A program made the position numbers and the translations under genes. From assembly GCF_023498005.1 (NCBI RefSeq), contig NZ_CP097289.1, positions 1,364,001-1,428,000 on the forward strand: a stretch of 64,000 bases of DNA. Reading direction: 5' to 3'. Positions 4,073 to 14,472 of the stretch are shown piece by piece; within the stretch, counting starts at the first letter, position 1; the number at the start of each line of letters is the position of its first letter. The notes under the pieces were generated by a model. The model searched no databases. It was not told the origin of the DNA and saw only the letters and a list, made by a program, of their open reading frames with translations. This stretch comes from Streptomyces durmitorensis (GTDB lineage Bacteria > Actinomycetota > Actinomycetes > Streptomycetales > Streptomycetaceae).

Positions 4073-4151
4073 GCTTTCAACCGAGGGGAAGAGCGGGTGT
4101 CGGCCAATTGCGATCCTTGCCATAAAACGACCACATTGGATCGTGCCGTGT

Positions 4152-4181
4152 CCGACATGCGACGACCGATCGCGGTAGCGT
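4152..4181 (+). promoter_or_regulatory. Candidate promoter of the GAF-ANTAR gene
   Basis: CCGACA at 4152-4157 is followed after 18 nt by TAGCGT at 4176-4181, which fits the Streptomyces TTGACN / TAGNNT housekeeping pattern reasonably well. It would start transcription about 70 nt upstream of the ATG at 4259. No experimental support. Confidence 0.4.
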
Positions 4182-4258
4182 GGAGTGGATTCCGTGAATT
4201 CCTCAACTGGAGCATGAACTCAGCTCTGTTGCCTGCATCGGGCGAAGGGAGAAGCGGC

Positions 4259-5020
4259 ATGACCGCCATGTCCGAGAGGCAGCACGAGAGGCAGCACGAG
4301 AAGCGGCTCGCGTCCGCCTTCACGGATCTCACCGGCCCGCTGGTACGGGACGTGAACGTGACCGACGTCCTGCACACCCTGTCCCAGCACTGCGTGGACC
4401 TCCTCGACGTCTCGGCGGCCGGGGTCCTCCTTGACGTTCCGCACGGCCCGGGTGTGGACGTCGTGGCCTCCGACGAGTACACCCGCGCACTGGAGCTGTT
4501 CGGCATCGAATGGGACGAGGGCCCGAGCCTGGACTGCCGCCGCTCCCCGGCGCACGTCTCGGAGACCCGGCTGGACGCCGACGACGCCTGTCCACGGTGG
4601 CCGCGCTTCACACCACGCGCCCTGCTCCTCGGCTTCACCTCGGTCGCGACGGTACCGCTGCGCTGCCAGGACACGGTGGTCGGCGCCCTGAGCCTCCTCC
4701 ACGACCGGCCGAGACCGCTGGACGACGTCCAGCTGCGGCTGGCCAAGGCGCTGGCGGACACCGCCGCCATGTGCGTGATCCAGCAGCAGGTGCTGCAAGG
4801 ACAGAAGACGCAGATCGCGCGGCTCCAGGACTCCCTGGAATCCCAGATCGTCATAGAGCAGGCCAAGGGATTCCTCTCCAACTCCCGCGGCTGCACCGCG
4901 GATCAGGCCTTGATCCGCATGCGGACGTATGCCCGCAACCGGCAGCTCAAGCTCTCCGATGTGGCCCGCCAGGTCCTGGACGGCGCCGTCGCACACACCC
5001 TGCTCGCCCCCGAACGCTGA
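4259..5020 (+). CDS. GAF and ANTAR domain transcription antitermination regulator
   Basis: A 253-residue soluble regulator. Residues about 20-165 form a GAF sensor domain. Residues about 185-245 form an ANTAR RNA-binding domain, with the characteristic IVIEQAKGFLSNSRG and MRTYARNRQLKLSDVA segments. ANTAR proteins bind paired stem-loops in nascent RNA and prevent termination; the GAF domain would sense a small ligand or redox state. ATG 4259 was chosen because AAGGGAG lies at a proper distance and the GAF domain begins soon after; the reading frame extends further upstream without conserved features. The RNA target is unknown. The gene is apparently monocistronic between the lipid operon and the GntR gene. 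Confidence 0.88.
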   Translation: MTAMSERQHERQHEKRLASAFTDLTGPLVRDVNVTDVLHTLSQHCVDLLDVSAAGVLLDVPHGPGVDVVASDEYTRALELFGIEWDEGPSLDCRRSPAHVSETRLDADDACPRWPRFTPRALLLGFTSVATVPLRCQDTVVGALSLLHDRPRPLDDVQLRLAKALADTAAMCVIQQQVLQGQKTQIARLQDSLESQIVIEQAKGFLSNSRGCTADQALIRMRTYARNRQLKLSDVARQVLDGAVAHTLLAPER

Positions 5021-5211
5021 GCTCTCCCGCACCGCGGCGGGCGCCGGGCATCAGCAGCTGCCGCTCGACGGTGCACAATCCAGGGCTCCCCCTGGCAGAT
5101 CTCCCCGAAAGCCTCGCGAACACGCAGGTCAGAGGCGGTGCGCGTGGTGCGTTGAGTGGCGCAATACTCCGGCAACACCACGGCCGTGAACACGTCGGTA
5201 TGGTCCCTCGC

Positions 5212-5982
5212 ATGCCAGCCGAACGTATCCGCGAGCACACCGTGCCGGTCGCCGCCGCACGACGGCGCCGGCTGCGCGCGGACCAGGCGCGGCAGCTCGC
5301 CGACCTGCTGCGCCACCAGGTGCGCACCGGGGGCTTCCCCAGCGGCGTCCTTCCGCTCGAGGGCGCGATCGGCAGCGACTACCACGTCTCCCGGAACACC
5401 GTCCGGCAGGCGCTGGACCTCCTCCGTACGGAAGGGCTGCTCGAACGGCAGCCCGGCGTCGGCACGGTCGTGGTGTCCGAGAAGTATCCGCACGGCCTCG
5501 ACCGGCTCCAGGGCCTGGCCGAGACCCTGCACGAACACGGCGACGTCACCAACGAAGTCCGTACGGTCGGTCCCGTCCCGGCGCCCGCACCCGTGGCCCG
5601 GCGTCTCGGCCTGGTGGAGCACACCGACGTGCTCTACATCGAGCGGCTGCGCCGGCTGGGCGGCCTGCCGCTCTCCCTCGACCTCACCTACATCCCGATG
5701 GACATCGGCGCCGGTCTCATCGGCTGCGACCTGGAGAACACCGATGTGTTCCGGCTCCTGGAGACCCTGACCGGGCAGCCGCTCGGCACGGCCGAGATCA
5801 CCCTGGAGGCCGTCAACGCCGACGTGCACTCCGCCGCCGTTCTCGAGGCCCCGCGCGGTGTCGCCGTCCTCATGCTCGAACGCCTCACCTCGTTGTCCGA
5901 CGGGCGCCCCGTGGACCTGGAGTTCATCCGCTTCCGCGGTGACCGCATCTCCATGAGCGGGCTGCTCCACCGCGCCCTCTGA
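5212..5982 (+). CDS. GntR-family transcriptional regulator with UTRA domain
   Basis: A 256-residue HutC-type regulator. An N-terminal winged helix (about residues 20-85, with VSRNTVRQALDLLRTEGLLER) is followed by a UTRA ligand-binding domain (about 95-250, with YIERLRRLGGLPLSLDLTYI). Proteins of this type bind operators next to their own operon and respond to a small effector. It sits directly upstream of, and co-directional with, the ferredoxin-ABC-flavoprotein genes, so it probably controls them. ATG 5212 was chosen because TATGGT at 5199-5204 followed by exactly 7 nt looks like a leaderless -10 element. An in-frame ATG at 5200 is the alternative. Confidence 0.88.
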   Translation: MPAERIREHTVPVAAARRRRLRADQARQLADLLRHQVRTGGFPSGVLPLEGAIGSDYHVSRNTVRQALDLLRTEGLLERQPGVGTVVVSEKYPHGLDRLQGLAETLHEHGDVTNEVRTVGPVPAPAPVARRLGLVEHTDVLYIERLRRLGGLPLSLDLTYIPMDIGAGLIGCDLENTDVFRLLETLTGQPLGTAEITLEAVNADVHSAAVLEAPRGVAVLMLERLTSLSDGRPVDLEFIRFRGDRISMSGLLHRAL

Positions 5983-6016
5983 TTCCTCACCCGCCACCTC
6001 TTCCCGGGAGACAGCC

Positions 6017-6244
6017 ATGCCTCTGGCCCCCCAGCGCGCCGACGTGCCCGTGACCATCGACGAGTCGAAGTGCATCGACGGCTGCACCCTCTGCGTCGAC
6101 ATGTGTCCGCTCGACTCGCTCGCGATCAACCCGGAGAGCGGCAAGGCCTTCATGCACGTCGACGAGTGCTGGTACTGCGGCCCGTGCGCGGCCCGCTGTC
6201 CCACGGGTGCGGTCACGGTCAACATGCCCTATCTGCTCCGGTGA
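6017..6244 (+). CDS. Small 2[4Fe-4S] ferredoxin, AprB-like
   Basis: A 75-residue iron-sulfur protein with two cysteine sets: C19-x3-C23-x2-C26-x3-C30P and C51-x2-C54-x2-C57-x3-C61P. The second, ECWYCGPCAARCPTGAV, resembles the di-cluster subunit of adenylylsulfate reductase. It should carry electrons in the cytoplasm for the flavoprotein encoded at 9381. GGGAGA precedes the ATG. It lies 34 bp after the GntR gene and 40 bp before the importer genes, so it is probably the first structural gene of the operon. Fold and cofactor are clear; its role as partner of the AprA-like flavoprotein is inference from context. Confidence 0.88.
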   Translation: MPLAPQRADVPVTIDESKCIDGCTLCVDMCPLDSLAINPESGKAFMHVDECWYCGPCAARCPTGAVTVNMPYLLR

Positions 6245-6284
6245 AGCCGGCAAAGTCGGCGAAGGTCGAGAGGTTCCCACTCCC

Positions 6285-7634
6285 ATGAAACGCACGGCAC
6301 TCGGCGCCGCCCTGGCCGCCCTCCTTGCCTTCCCCCTGGCGGGCTGCGGCGGGGCGAGCGCGGACGACTCCGGCACGGTCACCGTCACCATCGGCTACCA
6401 GTCCAAGACCATCAACACCGTCACCGCGGGCACGCTGTTGCGGTCGCTCGGCTACTTCGAGCGCGAGCTCGCCGAGCGCGGCAAGCGTGAGGGCGTCACC
6501 TACAAGGTGAAGTGGCAGGACTACGCCACCGGTGCGCCGATCACCGCGCAGATGACCGCAGGGAAGATCGACATCGGTTCGATGGGCGACTTCCCCCTCC
6601 TGATCAACGCCGCCCGCGGCGCACAGCTGAACCGGCCCACGAAACTGGTCTCCGTCACCGGCTACAACCTCCGGGGCGGCCTCAACACCGTGGTCACCGG
6701 CACCGGTTCGAAGCTTTCGTCGATCAAGGACCTGCGCGGCAAGAAGGTCTCGACGAGCGTCGGATCGGCCGCCGACGGCACTCTCGTACGGGCGCTGCGA
6801 CAGGCGGGCATCGACCCCGAGGACGACATCCGCAAGCTCAACCAGCAGCCCGCGGTGGGTGCTTCGGCGCTCCAGGCGGGCAGCGCGGACGCGCTGTCGC
6901 AGTTCGTCGCGTGGCCCGGTCTGCTCGCCTTCCAAGGCCGGGCCCGGGCGCTGTACGACGGCGCGGAGCTGAATCTGCCGACCTTCCACGGGGTCACCGC
7001 ACGCGAGGACTTCGCGCAGAAGAGGCCAGGGGTCCTGGAGGACTTCCTGCGCGCCCAGGCCAAGGCGACCGACCATCTCAACAAGCGTCCTGTCGCCGCC
7101 GCCGAGTCGGTGGCGAAGGCCACCGGTCTTCCGCCCGAGGTCGTCTACCTCTACAACGGCGCGCACGGCATCGCCACGTTCGACACCACGGTCAAACCCG
7201 CGCTGGTGGCCGCGTTGAAGAAGGACGTGCCCGTGCTGAAGTCGGCGAAGCTGGTGGGCGACGTGGACGTGGACGGTTTCGTCGACGAGCGGTACGTGAA
7301 GAAGGCGTACGGCGACGGATACGCGACCGCGCGGGCCGCCACCCCCAAGCCGCCGCGCAGCGAACTCTGGCTGAAGGGCGAGGACCGGACCCGGTCGTTC
7401 GCCACGCCGGCCGAGCTGTTGCGCCAGGCAGCCACCCGGGAGGGCAGGGTGCGTGCCGCGTACGTCCCCGACACCACCACCGGGACGCCCTGGTTCGCCG
7501 ACAAGGCCGTGTGGGTGGCCGACGGCGCGAAACTGCTGCCCTTCGTCACTCCCGCCACCGCCGCCTCCTACACCGCCGCGCATCCGGGCGCTCGCACCAT
7601 CTCGTACAACCAGGCCCTGAAGCAGGCATCATGA
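6285..7634 (+). CDS. ABC importer substrate-binding lipoprotein with NosL-like C-terminal domain
   Basis: A 449-residue lipoprotein. Residues 1-21 are a signal ending in PLAGC, so Cys21 is the lipidated residue. Residues about 30-340 resemble taurine/nitrate/sulfonate-type binding proteins: GKIDIGSMGDFPLL, then KDLRGKKVSTSVGSAADG. Family members are usually about 330 residues long. The extra C-terminal ~100 residues, around AYVPDTTTGTPWFADKAVWV and AASYTAAHPG, look like the second half of NosL, a copper-handling lipoprotein. No CxxC/CGM metal site is visible. The protein would capture substrate outside the membrane for the permease and ATPase encoded next. The substrate is unknown. The binding-protein call is firm; the NosL relation is moderate. 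Confidence 0.85.
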   Translation: MKRTALGAALAALLAFPLAGCGGASADDSGTVTVTIGYQSKTINTVTAGTLLRSLGYFERELAERGKREGVTYKVKWQDYATGAPITAQMTAGKIDIGSMGDFPLLINAARGAQLNRPTKLVSVTGYNLRGGLNTVVTGTGSKLSSIKDLRGKKVSTSVGSAADGTLVRALRQAGIDPEDDIRKLNQQPAVGASALQAGSADALSQFVAWPGLLAFQGRARALYDGAELNLPTFHGVTAREDFAQKRPGVLEDFLRAQAKATDHLNKRPVAAAESVAKATGLPPEVVYLYNGAHGIATFDTTVKPALVAALKKDVPVLKSAKLVGDVDVDGFVDERYVKKAYGDGYATARAATPKPPRSELWLKGEDRTRSFATPAELLRQAATREGRVRAAYVPDTTTGTPWFADKAVWVADGAKLLPFVTPATAASYTAAHPGARTISYNQALKQAS

Positions 7635-8533
7635 CGGTGCGTCACCTACTGCGCCTCCTGTCACTGGCCGGAGCGCTCGGCCTGTGGCAGCTCCTCACCG
7701 CGCTCGACGTCAATCTGTGGCTGCGCTTCGAGCAGTTCCCGACGGTCGTCGACGTGACGCGGGAGTTCGGGCGGCGCATCGGCAGCGAGGCGTACTGGCA
7801 GGACCTCACCGACAGTCTCAGCCGCATCGTCACCGGCTTCGCGCTCGCGGCGGCCGCGGGGGTGGCCGTCGGCACGGCGATCGCCCGCTCGCGCCTGGCC
7901 GCCGACCTGCTCGGGCCCGTCCTCGAAGTGCTGCGGCCCATACCGGCGATCGCCCTGGTGCCGGTGGCGATCCTGCTCTTCCCCAGCAACGAGCAGGGCA
8001 TCGTCTTCATCACCTTCACCGCGGCGTTCTTCCCCGTCATGGTCTCCACCCGGCACGCGGTGCGCGCCCTGACCCCGGTCTGGGAGGAGGCCGTCCTCAC
8101 GCTGGGCGGCGGCCGGTGGCGTGTGCTCGGCTCGGTGGTCCTGCCGGGGGCGCTGCCCGGCATCCTCGGCGGGCTCTCCGTGGGCATCGGCGTCTCGTGG
8201 ATCTGTGTGATCTCGGCGGAGATGATCTCCGGCGAGTACGGGGTGGGCTACCGCACCTGGCAGGACTACACGGTGGTCGACTACCCCGGCGTCTTCGTCG
8301 GCATGGTGACGATCGGCGCACTCGGGTGGCTGACGTCGACGGCGGTGGAGGTGCTCGGCCGCCGTGTCACGCGGTGGCTGCCGCGGACGGAGTTCCGCAG
8401 CGAGGCTCCGGTGCCGTCGCGCCGGTACCAGCGGGCGGCTCCGCACCCCGGCTCTCCCACGTCGAAGGCCGACGAGGCCGTGCCCCGAGTGTCCGCGTCA
8501 CGCACGCCGGACCGCGTCCACAAGGAGGCGTGA
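7631..8533 (+). CDS. ABC importer permease (taurine/nitrate/sulfonate type)
   Basis: A 300-residue inner-membrane permease with about six transmembrane segments. The cytoplasmic coupling loop EEAVLTLGGGRWRVLGSVVL matches the EAA motif that contacts the ATPase. The N-terminal LWQLLTALDVNLWLRFEQFP and the core ILRPIPAIALVPVAI-like segment are typical of SsuC/TauC/NrtB proteins. The C-terminal ~45 residues are a polar, proline-rich tail with no recognised domain. ATG 7631 overlaps the binding-protein stop (ATGA), which implies translational coupling. The transporter type is confident, the ligand is not. Confidence 0.9.
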   Translation: MTVRHLLRLLSLAGALGLWQLLTALDVNLWLRFEQFPTVVDVTREFGRRIGSEAYWQDLTDSLSRIVTGFALAAAAGVAVGTAIARSRLAADLLGPVLEVLRPIPAIALVPVAILLFPSNEQGIVFITFTAAFFPVMVSTRHAVRALTPVWEEAVLTLGGGRWRVLGSVVLPGALPGILGGLSVGIGVSWICVISAEMISGEYGVGYRTWQDYTVVDYPGVFVGMVTIGALGWLTSTAVEVLGRRVTRWLPRTEFRSEAPVPSRRYQRAAPHPGSPTSKADEAVPRVSASRTPDRVHKEA

Positions 8534-8537
8534 CCCC

Positions 8538-9338
8538 ATGACCACACCCCCCGAGACCACCGTCGGCCCCGCCCCCGTCCTCACCCCGCCGCGCGGCACC
8601 CGGCTCACGCTGCGCGACGCGTCGATCGGGCGGCAGGGCGCCGTCGTCCTCGACGGGCTCGAACTGGACGTCGCGCCGGGCGAGATCCTCACCGTCGTCG
8701 GCCCTTCCGGGTGCGGGAAGTCCACCCTGCTTCGCACCCTCGCCGGGCTGCTGCCCCCGCTGGGCGGGGAGGTCGAGCAGGACGGGAGGCCCATCACCGC
8801 GCCGCACGCCGAACGCGCGCTGATCTTCCAGGACGACGCGCTGCTGCCCTGGCGGACGCTGCGGGCCAATGTCGAACTGCCTCTGGCCATCCAGGGGTTG
8901 AGGCGAAGGGAGCGTCGCGCGCAGGCCGAAGGCTGGCTGGAGCGTGTCGGCCTCGGCGGGCACGGCGCCAAGCTGCCGCACCGCGTTTCGGGTGGGCAGC
9001 GGCAGCGTGTGCAGCTCGCCCGTGCCCTCGCGGGCGAGCCACGTGCCGTGCTCATGGACGAGCCGTTCGGCGCCCTTGACGCGCAGACCAGGGCCGGGAT
9101 GCAGCAGTTGCTTGCCGATGTGCTGCGCGGCACGGGCGCGACCGTCGTCTTCGTCACCCACGACGTGGACGAGGCGCTCTTCCTCGGCGACCGCGTCGCC
9201 CTGCTCGGCACCGGGACCGGCACCGGCACCGGCACCGGCCGCGTCCTCGACGTACCGCGCCCGCGTGATCGCACGTCCCACGGCGACCCCGCCACCGTCG
9301 AGCTGCGCCGCACCGTACTGACGTCCCTCGGCGCCTGA
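8538..9338 (+). CDS. ABC importer ATPase (SsuB/TauB/NrtD-like)
   Basis: A 266-residue cytoplasmic ATPase. Walker A is GPSGCGKST, the Q-loop region is IFQDDALLPWRTL, the signature is RVSGGQRQRVQLARAL, Walker B is RAVLMDEPFGALD, and the switch histidine lies in VTHDVDEALFLGDR. AAGGAGG precedes the ATG, 4 bp after the permease stop. A run of Gly-Thr dipeptides near the C-terminus comes from a hexanucleotide repeat and is probably a flexible linker. With the two preceding genes it completes a type I importer. Confidence 0.92.
   Translation: MTTPPETTVGPAPVLTPPRGTRLTLRDASIGRQGAVVLDGLELDVAPGEILTVVGPSGCGKSTLLRTLAGLLPPLGGEVEQDGRPITAPHAERALIFQDDALLPWRTLRANVELPLAIQGLRRRERRAQAEGWLERVGLGGHGAKLPHRVSGGQRQRVQLARALAGEPRAVLMDEPFGALDAQTRAGMQQLLADVLRGTGATVVFVTHDVDEALFLGDRVALLGTGTGTGTGTGRVLDVPRPRDRTSHGDPATVELRRTVLTSLGA
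9207..9236 (+). repeat. GGCACC hexanucleotide tandem repeat inside the ABC ATPase gene
   Basis: Five consecutive 6-bp units (one variant, GGGACC) encode alternating Gly-Thr. Such runs can change length by slippage without shifting frame. They lie after all catalytic motifs. Confidence 0.75.
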
Positions 9339-9380
9339 TCCCATCGGCGCCTGATCCCTCTGCGCCTGAGAGGCCCTTCC

Positions 9381-12086
9381 ATGCAGATCCCCGCAGTCAC
9401 CGACGCCCAGGAGCTCTCCTGCGACGTCCTCGTCATCGGCGGCGGAACGGCCGGCACGATGGCGGCGCTCACCGCGGCCGAGCAGGGCCGGGACGTCCTG
9501 CTCCTGGAGAAGGCGCACGTCCGCCACTCCGGCGCCCTCGCCATGGGCATGGACGGCGTCAACAACGCCGTGATCCCCGGCCGCGCCGAACCCGACGACT
9601 ACGTCGCCGAGATCACCCGCGCCAACGACGGCATCGTCGACCAGTCCACCGTCCGCCAGACGGCGACCCGCGGCTTCTCGATGGTGCAGCGCCTGGAGTC
9701 GTACGGCGTGAAGTTCGAGAAGGACGAGCACGGTGAGTACGCGGTGCGCCAGGTGCACCGCTCCGGTTCGTACGTCCTGCCCATGCCCGAGGGCAAGGAC
9801 GTGAAGAAGGTCCTCTACCGGCAGCTGCGCCGCCGCGAGATGCGCGAGCGCATCCGCATCGAGAACCGCGTGATGCCGGTCCGGGTGCTCACGGCGGACG
9901 GCAGGGCCGTCGGCGCCGCCGGATTCAACACGCGTACGGGCGAGTTCGTGACCGTTCGCGCCGGAGCGGTGATCCTCGCGACGGGCGCGTGCGGCCGCCT
10001 CGGCCTCCCGGCGAGCGGCTACCTCTACGGCACGTACGAGAACCCCACCAACGCGGGCGACGGCTACGCGATGGCCTACCACGCGGGCGCCGAGCTCACC
10101 GGCATCGAGTGCTTCCAGATCAACCCGCTGATGAAGGACTACAACGGCCCGGCCTGCGCCTATGTCGCCAACCCCTTCGGCGGCTACCAGGTCAACCGGC
10201 ACGGCGAGCGCTTCGTCGACTCCGACTACTGGTCGGGGCAGATGATGGCGGAGTTCGCCGCCGAACTCGCCTCCGACCGCGGGCCGGTGTATCTCAAGCT
10301 CAGCCATCTCCCGGAAGAGTCCATCAGCTCGCTCGAGAACATCCTGCACTCCACCGAGCGCCCGACGCGGGGGACCTTCCACGCGAACCGCGGCCACGAC
10401 TACCGCACCCACGACATCGAGATGCACATCTCCGAGATCGGCCTGTGCGGCGGCCACTCGGCATCGGGCGTCCGCGTGGACGACCACGCCCGCACGACCG
10501 TGCCCGGTCTGTACGCCGCCGGGGACCTGGCCTGCGTACCCCACAACTACATGATCGGCGCATTCGTCTTCGGCGACCTGGCGGGCGCGGACGCCGCTCA
10601 ATTCACCGCGTACGAGGGCGAGTTGCCGCAGCAACAAGTGGTGGACGCCCACGAACTGATCTACCGTCCGCTGCGCAACCCGGACGGACCGCCGCAACCG
10701 CAGGTCGAGTACAAACTGCGCCGCTTCGTGAACGACTACGTCGCCCCGCCCAAGTCGGGCGCCCGGCTCTCCCTGGCCGTGGACCACTTCGAGCGGATGC
10801 GCGGCGAGATCGACGAGATGGGCGCGCAGACCCCGCACGAGCTGATGCGCTGCGCCGAGGTGCACTTCATCCGGGACTGCGCCGAGATGGCGGCCCGGTC
10901 GTCACTGGCCCGCACGGAGTCGCGCTGGGGGCTCTACCACGAACGCACGGATCATCCGAAGCGCGACGACGACGGCTGGCTGCACCATCTGGACCTGCGC
11001 AAGTCCCCTTCCGGGGCCATGGAGTTCACGGCACGGCCGGTGGAGCCCTACCTGGTCCCGGTCGCCGAGTTCACGCCGGGCGGCGGAGCCTCACGCCATC
11101 TGGGCGAGGTGCACCCGGAGCAGGTGGCCACCGCGGGGCAGCGCGACGTCGCCCCGGTCGGATCGGGCACCCGCAGCAGCGGCGCACCCGCACGGGAGAC
11201 CGCCGCCTCTCACTCCCCACGCATCCTGGAACTGCTGGCTCTCAGCGACACCGAGCCCGAACTCCCCCTACTGCGACCTTTCTTGACCGACCCGGACCCG
11301 GCCGTGCGCCGGGCGGCCGTGGCCGCGCTCACCGAGACCGTCCCCACGGGGACGGGCCCGGCGCTCGCCGAGACACTGTCGGACACGGATGCGGGGGTGC
11401 GCGGCGCCGCTGCCGCGTCCCTGCGCGAACTGGTCGAAGTCCTGCCCCCGGAGGAGGACTTGTCCCGGGGCCTGCTCAGCGCCCTCGGCCATGGGGACGC
11501 CGTGGTCCGGGCGACGGCGCTGGACGTCTTGCGCGCCCTACGCCTCGGTGAGGCCACCGCGTACGCCCCCGCGCTCGCCGATCCGGACATCGAGGTCCGC
11601 ATCGCGTCGGTGCGCGCCCTGGTCTCGGTCGGCGCCCTCGACACGGTCGCCCGCGCCGCCGTCGACCCGGCCCGCGAGGTGCGCGTCACGGTGGCACGCG
11701 GCCTCGACACCCCGGAGGCACTGGCTCCGCTGCTCGGCGACGTGGACATCCTGGTCCGCGCGGCAGCCTTCACCGCCCTGGCATCCGTGGGCTGCCCCAC
11801 TCCGTACGACGTCAGGGCGGTGGACGCACTGGCCGCCCCGTCCTGGCAGGTCCGCACGGGCGCGGCGGCGGCACTGGGCGCGGCCGACCCCCGAAGCGCC
11901 GTACCCGCCCTGTCCACGGCACTCGCCGACCCCAACGCCGACGTCCGCAAGGCCGCGGTCCTCGCCCTCCTCCGGCACGCGCCGCACGAGGCCGCCCGCA
12001 CGGCGCTCGCGTCGGCGGTCCTGGACCCGGACGCGGACGTCCGCGCCTACGCCGCCCGGGCGGCTGCGCCTGCCTCAGCCTCTTAG
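9381..12086 (+). CDS. AprA/succinate-dehydrogenase-like flavoprotein fused to HEAT repeats
   Basis: A 901-residue cytoplasmic FAD protein. Residues about 14-40 hold the dinucleotide site DVLVIGGGTAGTMAALTAAE. A HSGALAMGMDGVNNAVIPG segment and a C-terminal FAD motif (GLYAAGDLACVPHNYMIGAF) place the first ~560 residues in the adenylylsulfate reductase alpha / fumarate reductase group. From about residue 612 to the end there are about nine HEAT-type repeats, each marked by a D-P-D...V-R-x-x-A pattern. HEAT arrays usually mediate protein contacts. It follows the importer genes and probably pairs with the AprB-like ferredoxin at 6017. The substrate is unknown; true APS reduction is not implied by homology alone. 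TAG/TAA-free reading and length support one fused protein. Confidence 0.88.
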   Translation: MQIPAVTDAQELSCDVLVIGGGTAGTMAALTAAEQGRDVLLLEKAHVRHSGALAMGMDGVNNAVIPGRAEPDDYVAEITRANDGIVDQSTVRQTATRGFSMVQRLESYGVKFEKDEHGEYAVRQVHRSGSYVLPMPEGKDVKKVLYRQLRRREMRERIRIENRVMPVRVLTADGRAVGAAGFNTRTGEFVTVRAGAVILATGACGRLGLPASGYLYGTYENPTNAGDGYAMAYHAGAELTGIECFQINPLMKDYNGPACAYVANPFGGYQVNRHGERFVDSDYWSGQMMAEFAAELASDRGPVYLKLSHLPEESISSLENILHSTERPTRGTFHANRGHDYRTHDIEMHISEIGLCGGHSASGVRVDDHARTTVPGLYAAGDLACVPHNYMIGAFVFGDLAGADAAQFTAYEGELPQQQVVDAHELIYRPLRNPDGPPQPQVEYKLRRFVNDYVAPPKSGARLSLAVDHFERMRGEIDEMGAQTPHELMRCAEVHFIRDCAEMAARSSLARTESRWGLYHERTDHPKRDDDGWLHHLDLRKSPSGAMEFTARPVEPYLVPVAEFTPGGGASRHLGEVHPEQVATAGQRDVAPVGSGTRSSGAPARETAASHSPRILELLALSDTEPELPLLRPFLTDPDPAVRRAAVAALTETVPTGTGPALAETLSDTDAGVRGAAAASLRELVEVLPPEEDLSRGLLSALGHGDAVVRATALDVLRALRLGEATAYAPALADPDIEVRIASVRALVSVGALDTVARAAVDPAREVRVTVARGLDTPEALAPLLGDVDILVRAAAFTALASVGCPTPYDVRAVDALAAPSWQVRTGAAAALGAADPRSAVPALSTALADPNADVRKAAVLALLRHAPHEAARTALASAVLDPDADVRAYAARAAAPASAS

Positions 12087-12141: not shown

Positions 12142-14223
12142 TCAGCCGTCGGCCGGGCAGAGGCGGCGCGGCCGGGGATCCGTCTTCAGCTCGGCATCCA
12201 CGCATCCGGCCGGCAGGCCGTCGTACGCCTTCGTTCCGAAGTTGGCCGTCACCGTCAGGGTGCCGTCGCCGAAGACCGAACGCTGGACCGTGTGGTCCTT
12301 GGTCAGCCGACGGAAGTCGGTCATCCGTTCCGTGCCGGCCGCCTTGTGCAGCGGGGCGAAGTACCGCTGGAGTCCGGCCATCTCCCTTCCCGTGGTGTCC
12401 AGATTCTCCTCGCCGAGAACGAAGTTGAGCGGAGTGTTGTAGAGCACGGACATCAGTGCGCGGTCCCGCTTCTGCGCGGGGAACTTGTCGTAGGGCATTT
12501 CCCAGCGGTCGGTGCTGATGAGGGAGTCGTGCAGCGCGGTCTGGTAGAGGGGCACGCGGTAGGCGGGGTCGTACATCGACTTGGCCAGCGCGTGGGGAAG
12601 TGTCGTGGGCCTGAAGAAGAATCCGGGAGCGTCGTCGGGATAGTAGGCACCCCATTCCTTGTCCTTCTGGAACGGCCACAGGCCGTCGTTCACCGGCGTC
12701 TGGGACCCGTGGTTGAACGCGAGCGCCGGAGCCGACCAGGAGACGGCGGACTCCGATCCCAGGACGAAGCCGTCCCGGTCCGCGAGCGTGCGCATGCGTT
12801 CCATGCGGTTGGCCCGGTCCTGCTTCTTGGTCATCGGGTGGTTCTCGGAGAAGTCCGCGAAGAGCTCTCCCGCCGCGTCGACGTCGAGAAAGACGCTGTT
12901 GACGCCGTTCTTGGTCATTTCCTTCACGTGCCGGGCAAGATAGCGCTTGGCGGGTTCGGACTCGGCGAACGCCTCCGAGCTGAGATAGCAGCCGCGGTCC
13001 CCGAATCCCGTCTTGATCCGGCCCTTCCAGTCCCGCACGCAGAAGTCGGGGTAGACCTTGTCCGGCCACTTCGCCACAGGTGTGTCGGCGGATTCCGGGT
13101 CCTGGCCGTTGGCGTAGGTGTCGTACGGGCCGACGAGATAGCCCTGCTTCTTGGCGGTCGCCACCGCTTCCTTGCTCATGGGGCTGCCATCGGCGTCATA
13201 GCCGAGCCACAGCCGGGTGTTGCCCTGCTCGCGCAGCTTCTCGACGGCCTTGGCCTCGCGCGCGCCGCCCCACAGATACGCGTGCTCGGCCCCGAGCAGT
13301 TTCCTGGTCTCGGGGTTCTTCGCGATCTTCTGCTTGAGGGTGCGCAGTTCGCCGTGCTGACGCAGCCATCGGCGGTAGTCGCCGCCCGGCGCGACGGGGG
13401 AACCAGAGGTGAGAGCGAAGGTGACGGTGTAGCCGAGGGTCTTTTCCCGCCGGGAGAACTCATGCTTCGCCGTCGCGTTCAGTCGCCCGCCCGTCGAGGC
13501 GAAGGCCAGCGACGTGCCGATGCTCTCCGGCACGAGGTAGCTGACGCCGTGTCCGCCCGAGCTGTATCCCCACAGCGGCAGGGTCAGGGAGCCGGTGGCC
13601 AGTTCCGCCTCGGTGCCGGCCAGACCCGCTGCCTTCGTGTTCCAGAACCGGTCCGCGGTCGGGACGGAGAGACCCTCGCCCCGTGGCACCTGCAGCGAGG
13701 CGTTCGCGGTGTCGGTGCCCGGTCCCTTGCCGGAGACGGGCCAAGCGAGGGTGCCGTCCTTCTCGGCCCGGACCGTCATCCGCAGCCGCCCCGCCTCACT
13801 GGCGGCGGTGACCCGCAGGCCCTTGGCGGCATACGACCACCGGGCACGGGAACCGTCCACCTCGACCCGGCTCGGCCTGCCCAGGTCGTCGGCCGCGGCA
13901 GCGGAGACGGGGACTGCTCCCCCGCCTTCCGTGCGTCCCGTGATCCGCAGCGTGGAGGTGTCGACCGTGGTGCTGCCGCCTGCCACCGCGAAGTCGACGG
14001 AACTGCCGTGCACCTTGGGGGGCGCGGCCTGCGAGGACTTGGCATCGGCGTCCACGACGACGGCGTAGCCCGCCGATGCGGTGGTCCCGGTGACGACCAG
14101 CGCGAGGGCCACCCCGAGACCGCGGTTGCGCCGCTTGCGCGCGACTCCCGCGGCGTCTCGGTGTCGTACGCGGTCCGGAGATCCGTCGCTCTCCCCCTGC
14201 GGGGCGTTCTTGGCCTGTTCCAT
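12142..14223 (-). CDS. Secreted glycoside-hydrolase-like protein
   Basis: A 693-residue exported protein. A twin-basic region (ARKRRNRGLG) is followed by a hydrophobic helix (about residues 34-55) that acts as signal or anchor. About 200 residues of beta-rich domain (RITGRTEGGGAVPVSAAAAD and following) precede a TIM-barrel-like region with NTRLWLGYDADGSP, NSVFLDVDAAGELFADF and FVLGSESAVSWSAPALAF, where aspartate and glutamate residues could be catalytic. A beta-sheet tail (GTLTVTANFGTKAYDGLPAG) closes the protein. The pattern resembles large bacterial glycosidases acting on polysaccharide, but the exact GH family was not established. ATG 14223 was preferred because upstream in-frame sequence looks non-coding. 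It converges on the flavoprotein gene and diverges from the cyclodipeptide synthase gene. Confidence 0.75.
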   Translation of the reverse strand: MEQAKNAPQGESDGSPDRVRHRDAAGVARKRRNRGLGVALALVVTGTTASAGYAVVVDADAKSSQAAPPKVHGSSVDFAVAGGSTTVDTSTLRITGRTEGGGAVPVSAAAADDLGRPSRVEVDGSRARWSYAAKGLRVTAASEAGRLRMTVRAEKDGTLAWPVSGKGPGTDTANASLQVPRGEGLSVPTADRFWNTKAAGLAGTEAELATGSLTLPLWGYSSGGHGVSYLVPESIGTSLAFASTGGRLNATAKHEFSRREKTLGYTVTFALTSGSPVAPGGDYRRWLRQHGELRTLKQKIAKNPETRKLLGAEHAYLWGGAREAKAVEKLREQGNTRLWLGYDADGSPMSKEAVATAKKQGYLVGPYDTYANGQDPESADTPVAKWPDKVYPDFCVRDWKGRIKTGFGDRGCYLSSEAFAESEPAKRYLARHVKEMTKNGVNSVFLDVDAAGELFADFSENHPMTKKQDRANRMERMRTLADRDGFVLGSESAVSWSAPALAFNHGSQTPVNDGLWPFQKDKEWGAYYPDDAPGFFFRPTTLPHALAKSMYDPAYRVPLYQTALHDSLISTDRWEMPYDKFPAQKRDRALMSVLYNTPLNFVLGEENLDTTGREMAGLQRYFAPLHKAAGTERMTDFRRLTKDHTVQRSVFGDGTLTVTANFGTKAYDGLPAGCVDAELKTDPRPRRLCPADG

Positions 14224-14472
14224 GATCGCGAGTATCCGAGGGGCTTTTAAGAGATTCCTAAGAGGCTCCCTTCCGCCGTGACTACCTCGCACCGCAGCGG
14301 TGTTCGACGGCCGCGATGAGGCATCGTTCCTGCTCGTCCCTAAGATCGAACTGCGCCCCCGCACGCGCCGAACTGATCCCTACGCGCCCTGTTTCCCAAG
14401 GTCAGGGCCACATTTCTGTAGCTCCGCATGGAAACGGTCCCGGTAGCCGAAGGACCGACAGAGAGACATCAC

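Follow-up and report, generated by a model that had tools for sequence, protein, structure and literature searches.

Sulfonates are described as a major form of organic sulfur in soil in a section of PMC4267179, which also describes the closest functional counterpart of the system considered here. The asfRABC cluster comprises a binding protein, an ABC (ATP-binding cassette) transporter, a reductase/ferredoxin pair and a LysR regulator, and serves the use of aromatic, not aliphatic, sulfonates, the former being lost and the latter kept in asfA mutants. For C. metallidurans, AsfA and AsfB are given as Rmet_4334/5, with asfRAB on the second replicon (PMC2864759, in part). The PAPS (3'-phosphoadenosine 5'-phosphosulfate) reductase of Methanothermococcus thermolithotrophicus (8a8o) combines an alpha subunit with a two-cluster ferredoxin beta subunit; according to a section of PMC10322725 it retains the catalytic residues of APS (adenosine 5'-phosphosulfate) reductase, and N5 of its FAD (flavin adenine dinucleotide) is proposed to attack the PAPS sulfur. 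The present work concerns an operon of Streptomyces durmitorensis, located in a stretch of 64,000 nucleotides (contig NZ_CP097289.1, positions 1,364,001 to 1,428,000), hereafter the window. At 5212-12086 of the window, six genes on the + strand code, in this order, for a GntR regulator, a ferredoxin, a substrate-binding protein (SBP), a permease, an ATPase and a flavoprotein. On balance, and with slightly more confidence than doubt, we read this set as a sulfur-scavenging operon, whereby an imported organosulfur anion would be fed to a ferredoxin-driven AprA-like flavoenzyme, both substrate and reaction being putative.

Like asfRABC of Pseudomonas putida S-313 (Vermeij et al. 1999, cited after PMC4267179), the operon unites a flavoprotein reductase, a ferredoxin, an SBP, an ABC transporter and a regulator of its own, yet this regulator is of the GntR/UTRA type instead of LysR (asfR), and the flavoprotein has a HEAT domain, whereas the description of asfRABC, as far as the section of PMC4267179 extends, includes no HEAT protein. 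No paper describing the operon was recognized in a search of open-licence literature, and the portion of PMC7661421 considered contains no mention of fumarate reductase, ferredoxin or GntR. A characterized pathway of known substrate that would account for all six genes was not found, in line with the original prediction; such gene sets, which other bacteria also have, probably serve to obtain sulfur from organic compounds.

The six genes form one tight run, with gaps of 34 and 40 bases, an overlap of the permease ATG at 7631 (a start taken from the sequence) with the SBP stop, and then gaps of 4 and 42 bases. Order and strand are unchanged in 75 of 80 actinobacterial loci, which come from named genomes, are all actinobacterial as judged by record title, and represent the best kept of 575 confirmed places, not a sample. 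With the order kept to this extent, the arrangement is not a product of chance. Among the five exceptions, three loci (L057, L070 and L087) are truncated by the end of their contig; in L056 neither permease nor ATPase was matched and the flavoprotein match begins only at residue 174; and gntR is unmatched in L067. A second set consisted of 16 annotated plasmid loci of Proteobacteria and Cyanobacteria, chosen for diversity from 50 listed among 212 records with a match. A ferredoxin gene and a separate HEAT-repeat gene lie inside the cluster in all 16 loci read, the HEAT gene of L116 being annotated as two pieces and the ferredoxin of L091 lying five genes further on. The SBP, permease and ATPase genes occur within ~9 kb in 14 of them (the exceptions are L091 and L092), and the regulators differ, with GntR/UTRA directly upstream in six and Crp/Fnr in the cluster in six. 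The self-contained unit of regulator, ferredoxin, importer and flavoprotein that had been proposed for 5212-12086 is thus confirmed in its genes and their order, and rare co-occurrence of ferredoxin and flavoprotein, which had been named as grounds for abandoning the proposal, is not what these neighborhoods exhibit (75 of 80 and 16 of 16).

The operon is an accessory system: the NF010374 cut-off is passed by 50 of 150 Streptomyces genomes, and that of NF006131 by 8 of 246 Actinomycetota. Members of the flavoprotein family occur in Actinomycetota, Pseudomonadota and Cyanobacteria, and more than 7,000 database proteins match at E 0.001 or better, part of them outside the flavoprotein subfamily. 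Entries of Streptomyces avermitilis include a near homologue, 91-92% identical over residues 1-575. In five Streptomyces genomes (G128, G125, G047, G104 and G062) the flavoprotein-HEAT gene is present in fragments only, as if decayed or split by assembly.

The flavoprotein belongs to NF010374 over its full length (PRK13800; 1616.4 bits against a cut-off of 1196, residues 1-895 of a model of 898). This family and NF006131 (PRK08275) carry the name 'fumarate reductase/succinate dehydrogenase flavoprotein subunit', a label borne by most of the named relatives listed. The name is misleading, since PAPS reductase is the closest relative of solved structure and the operon codes for no partner subunit of succinate dehydrogenase (SDH) or fumarate reductase (FRD); on the same grounds, fumarate reductase/SDH function was rejected. 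Among solved proteins, the M. thermolithotrophicus PAPS reductase alpha subunit matches with 193 bits, A. fulgidus AprA with 106 and E. coli SDH with 97, and the top Foldseek match of the modeled flavoprotein is likewise 8a8o_A (E 2.3e-23, TM 0.80 on target), with FRD, SDH and AprA close behind. In a tree of 19 rows the family groups with PAPS reductase and an AprA from a metagenome-assembled genome (MAG) with 97/95 support; SDH, NadB and a probable C. metallidurans AsfA stand outside this group, all three on long to very long branches.

The kinship to AprA does not amount to membership. The curated AprA cut-offs were missed (TIGR02061, 130.6 of 641.75 bits; NF005331, 272.3 of 557 bits), and Arg265 and Trp234 of AprA, which we take to have a role in substrate binding, are replaced by Leu250 and Tyr219 in the window protein and correspondingly in 240 of 240 relatives, these being the best matches listed, not a random sample (A. 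fulgidus numbering, from the alignment with 1jnr). The equivalent of Asn74 is kept as Asn61. The catalytic residues of APS reductase are retained only in part. A family-specific insert, VH..G.YVLPMP, occupies the region of the PAPS reductase substrate loop, and the aligned active-site region is almost invariant across the family, with the near-invariant motifs YEN.TN, NPL.KDYNGP.CAYV, DYWSGQM and ISEIG.C.GHSASGV. Compared with the 8a8o alpha subunit, whose fold it shares, the window flavoprotein is 27% identical over 535 aligned positions, has Leu for the Arg aligned with AprA Arg265, an extra loop and a HEAT domain, and places Tyr-Glu at Trp206-Tyr207, which bind FAD according to the section of PMC10322725. 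Because the curated cut-offs are missed and Leu stands at the Arg265 position, the protein is best described as AprA-like and not AprA, with a predicted AprA-type scaffold and a different active-site make-up. As the positions specific to APS/PAPS are replaced while the active-site region is near-invariant in the family, it most likely has a substrate of its own, other than APS/PAPS.

The flavoprotein had been predicted to be plainly AprA-like, which holds for its FAD part; its C-terminal third, which had been overlooked, consists of HEAT repeats, modeled as helical repeats with high pLDDT. In C. pinatubonensis, the counterpart of residues 571-895 is the separate HEAT gene (a 37% match), so that in Actinobacteria two parts of one unit seem to have been fused into the flavoprotein-HEAT protein. 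The extension of the SBP and the existing NCBI family with its misleading name had likewise escaped the original prediction.

The operon ferredoxin, of 75 residues against 150 in A. fulgidus AprB, resembles the ferredoxin part of AprB and of the PAPS reductase beta subunit; its PDB matches include 3gyx_B, 8a8o_C and 1jnr_B, and polyferredoxins score higher. It falls short of the AprB cut-off (TIGR02060, 32.2 of 135.65 bits). With TIGR02061 and TIGR02060 both missed, the 'AprBA' label given to the ferredoxin and flavoprotein denotes resemblance only: the likeness stands, true membership in AprA and AprB does not. The combination of an FAD subunit, an AprB-like ferredoxin and an SsuABC-like importer is also not without precedent, contrary to what had been supposed, since asfRABC is a described functional analogue and a low-GC MAG (89% complete, placed in the same phylum) contains AprBA with such an importer. 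In this MAG (L128, 5461-14473; G375:C65), a single run codes for a ThiS-like carrier, a sulfite-reductase-like protein, TusA, AprBA, ATP sulfurylase, an SsuABC-like importer and a JAB-domain protein, and looks assimilatory. Its AprA passes NF005331 (812 of 557 bits) and misses TIGR02061 (511 of 642), is 57% identical to PAPS reductase and 32% to the window protein, and keeps the equivalent of Arg265, as does 8a8o; its AprB-like gene scores 76 of 136 bits and its SBP 175.8 of 163.5 bits.

The importer shares the fold and sequence of its SBP, as well as the families of its permease and ATPase, with SsuABC/TauABC, and SsuA is the top match of the SBP in both sequence and fold, which upholds the assignment of a sulfonate-type importer. 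It differs from SsuABC/TauABC in remaining under the curated cut-offs and in an additional C-terminal SBP domain of ~95 residues. The NosL Pfam match of this domain in the window protein reaches 15.5 bits, under the cut-off of 24; the match recurs in six of the seven SBPs given, and only that of Leptolyngbya (L110, 29.2) exceeds the cut-off. The SBP fold searches, which barely covered the C-terminal domain, listed no fold resembling NosL. Further folds matching the SBP are NrtA, CmpA, PqqT, TphC and Thi5.

The sulfur context that had been anticipated is reflected in sulfonate/sulfone genes near some relatives of the operon. In S. olindensis (L015) the operon converges with SsuD-like, SfnB, SsuE and SfnG genes, the last three above their cut-offs. 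Four Streptomyces loci (L010, L015, L021 and L063) have SsuD-like genes immediately downstream, 70-75% identical to an SsuD-like protein of S. durmitorensis. These genes are joined by matches to both SfnB and SsuE in three of the loci (L010, L015 and L063), by an SsuE-like match in L021, and by SfnG-type matches in L010 and L015. Independent queries, namely three SsuD-like proteins of S. durmitorensis and two C. pinatubonensis proteins (threshold 1e-15), retrieved 15 sulfonate/sulfone or related genes in 10 of the 80 flanks (854,854 bases), versus none in 40 control regions (800,000 bases) taken from 20 Streptomyces genomes, irrespective of whether these have the operon. This corresponds to a binomial p of 5e-5 by gene and a Fisher p of 0.03 by locus, both rendered optimistic by kinship among the loci. 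An earlier query set, derived in part from the flanks, gave 24 genes in 12 of 80 loci versus none; the independent set is relied upon here. Among 150 Streptomyces genomes, SsuD co-occurs in 39 of the 50 with the operon versus 51 of the 100 without (Fisher p 0.0015), a difference that does not hold within genome-size classes; S. durmitorensis itself has three strong SsuD-like genes (419-467 bits, under the cut-off of 518). In C. pinatubonensis the neighbors are SfnB-like (below cut-off), an NtaA/DmoA monooxygenase (over) and SsuA-like (just below), and the Paraburkholderia copy (L118) adjoins a luciferase-like monooxygenase, 3-mercaptopropionate dioxygenase and a rhodanese-related gene. TauE/SafE or TSUP exporters occur within 9 kb in five of the 16 non-actinobacterial loci, versus none of 177 annotated features in 200 kb from four of the same records (where hpsN and hpsO are present), the flank features of the 16 loci not having been counted individually for this comparison.

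In the proposed sulfur-scavenging system, the SsuA-like SBP, with the permease and ATPase, would bring in a sulfonate-like anion, as family, fold and neighbors suggest. The flavoprotein and the two-cluster ferredoxin may form a complex, with the HEAT repeats serving as a scaffold, in which low-potential electrons would pass from the ferredoxin to FAD in order to transform the imported anion. The outcome would probably be the release of sulfite, to be taken up by assimilatory sulfite reductase, or else a compound readied for a monooxygenase, and the UTRA-GntR protein would control the operon, perhaps via the element at 5125-5165. FdxA, which occurs in the clusters of M. radiotolerans and A. caldus, and ferredoxin-NADP reductase, which occurs in the former, hint at the electron supply. 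More specifically, and as a tentative proposal that we consider rather doubtful, the flavoprotein may be a ferredoxin-driven reductive desulfonase or S-sulfonate cleaving enzyme, in which N5 of the reduced FAD attacks the sulfonyl sulfur of the imported anion, in the manner proposed for APS/PAPS reductases and their nucleotide substrates, and sulfite is freed without oxygen. Such an enzyme would constitute an O2-independent alternative to SsuD/TauD-type desulfonation, present in soil bacteria and cyanobacteria under a fumarate reductase name. Should organic sulfur be the substrate, a missing route of sulfonate scavenging would be added, and a sulfate-reduction enzyme would have been re-tooled to a new substrate. 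In any event, one importer, one redox complex, one regulator and one candidate operator make for a compact, testable system.

Several observations weigh against the sulfur-scavenging interpretation. No queried sulfonate/sulfone gene was detected in 70 of the 80 actinobacterial flanks or in the 64-kb window, and the ten positive loci are all Streptomyces; six of them (L017, L030, L032, L036, L039 and L050) exhibit general family matches only, at 24-42% identity, and in the four SsuD-bearing loci the flavoproteins are 94-96% identical, which may reflect one event. The co-occurrence with SsuD is not significant within three genome-size classes (p 0.07, 0.76 and 0.26). The SBP misses the SsuA cut-off (TIGR01728, 136.4 of 163.5 bits), and the ATPase is below that of PRK11248 (218.8 of 357 bits). 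As for the flavoprotein, its AF2 model is poor over much of 203-360 (pLDDT <50), and AprA-type chemistry is not to be assumed for a protein that does not have Arg265.

The most probable of the rival explanations, though we judge it unlikely, is that the flavoprotein and ferredoxin only supply electrons to a separate SsuD-type monooxygenase, as proposed for asfAB of Pseudomonas putida S-313, while the importer widens the substrate range. The parts list equals that of asfRABC as given in the section of PMC4267179, SsuD-, SsuE-, SfnB- and SfnG-type genes adjoin some copies, and S. durmitorensis has its three strong SsuD-like genes. However, at E 1e-100 an SsuD-type match is absent from 11 of the 50 Streptomyces with the operon, weaker matches being possible, and the near-invariant active-site region is more in keeping with a substrate-specific enzyme than with a carrier. 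The probable AsfA of C. metallidurans, the sole AsfA compared and one of uncertain assignment, is moreover 26% identical to the window flavoprotein and falls outside its group in the tree, albeit on a very long branch.

This protein (L105) was picked from a record without gene labels: of the places inspected, only here does a two-cluster ferredoxin gene come immediately after a flavoprotein gene. It scores 56 of 587 bits against NF006131, and its own relatives are named only FAD-dependent oxidoreductase or similar. SBP, ATPase, permease and amidohydrolase genes were recognized by eye in its surroundings, and no LysR gene was recognized beside it. The operon and asf look like analogues from different branches of one flavoprotein superfamily. 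The flavoprotein-ferredoxin pair, from another family, lies at 390-6863 of L105, on the C. metallidurans megaplasmid, convergent with the SBP-ATPase-permease-amidohydrolase set; with its neighbors judged by eye, it is a second, independent arrangement of importer and flavoprotein/ferredoxin. Identity of the operon with the canonical asf cluster of C. metallidurans CH34 was rejected: on the replicon to which PMC2864759 assigns asfRAB, the matches to the window flavoprotein are ~30% identical, except for one of 49 residues in an FAD motif at 43%.

A redox enzyme acting on an imported compound without sulfur chemistry, such as an aromatic acid or a heterocycle, appears improbable. The NMT1/SsuA-like importer fold also serves nitrate, bicarbonate, pyrimidines and aromatic acids; the SBP and ATPase remain under the curated sulfonate/taurine cut-offs, the NrtA, CmpA, PqqT, TphC and Thi5 folds match the SBP too, and most flanks contain no queried sulfur gene. 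Nevertheless, the top position of SsuA in sequence and fold, the enrichment of sulfur genes in the flanks, the exporters in five of the 16 non-actinobacterial loci and the kinship of the flavoprotein to sulfate-reduction enzymes all speak for sulfur. A genuine assimilatory or dissimilatory APS/PAPS reductase with an incidentally linked importer, to which the AprA-like fold and sequence and the AprBA of L128 (with Sat and an SsuABC-like importer) could be taken to point, is very improbable in view of the missed TIGR02061, NF005331 and TIGR02060 cut-offs, the Leu and Tyr at Arg265 and Trp234 in the window protein and all 240 listed relatives, the VH..G.YVLPMP insert where the PAPS reductase substrate loop sits, and an operon without ATP sulfurylase.

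Upstream of gntR, a composite element with the consensus CAGGTCAG-N22/23-GTGGCGYAAY recurs across the loci and is considered a candidate operator or promoter, its link to the GntR protein being putative. A score of at least 14 over its 18 positions was obtained in 69 of 77 upstream regions (76 loci and the window), versus 20 of 385 mononucleotide shuffles, with a consensus derived from the same regions that were scored; the spacing is mostly 22-23, and eight of the 77 regions score below 14. In several loci of Nocardia, Mycobacterium and others, only part of the element is matched, or the match falls within the start of the gene. The S. durmitorensis genome contains a single exact copy, and a wider regulon was not supported: 52 sites with up to three mismatches, the exact one included, compare with 35 for the reversed-pattern control.

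Table. Predicted features of the operon region, in window coordinates.
Feature	Position	Strand	Basis or remark
Conserved composite element CAGGTCAG-N23-GTGGCGCAAT, candidate operator/promoter	5125..5165	+	upstream of gntR
GntR/HutC-type regulator with UTRA, 256 aa	5212..5982	+	Pfam GntR, UTRA
75-aa ferredoxin, two 4Fe-4S cysteine motifs	6017..6244	+	Pfam 4Fe-4S dicluster
SsuA/TauA-like SBP, 449 aa	6285..7634	+	Pfam NMT1, SsuA-like
Additional SBP C-terminal domain, weakly NosL-like	7347..7631	+	NosL match below cut-off
ABC permease	7631..8533	+	Pfam BPD_transp_1
ABC ATPase, TauB/SsuB-like	8538..9338	+	Pfam ABC_tran; best NCBIfam PRK11248
Fused flavoprotein, 901 residues	9381..12086	+	Pfam FAD_binding_2 + Succ_DH_flav_C + HEAT repeats
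AprA/PAPS-reductase-alpha-like FAD domain, flavoprotein residues 1-575	9381..11105	+	
HEAT-repeat domain (~residues 613-895) and flavoprotein end	11217..12086	+	Pfam HEAT_2

The likely neighbors of the operon are open reading frames at 4097-5020 (+ strand) and 12142-14364 (minus strand, converging). Additional genes accompany some of the non-actinobacterial clusters. A DUF971 (GBBH-like_N) gene is present in nine of the 16 loci (L106, L107, L109, L112, L113 and L115-L118), and an Mrp/NBP35 (NUBPL-type) gene in three (L091, L110 and L114), all cyanobacterial, as assigned by Pfam on examples. Plant HCF101 combines DUF971 and Mrp domains, and the two kinds of protein may be Fe-S cluster carriers, possibly dedicated ones. 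A GBBH-like_N (DUF971) search of the S. durmitorensis genome gave no match, the controls being equally silent. In the A. caldus plasmid pTcM1 (L092, 10574-14035), the gene after those for FdxA and the HEAT protein codes for an FAD-dependent oxidoreductase of 1,153 residues.

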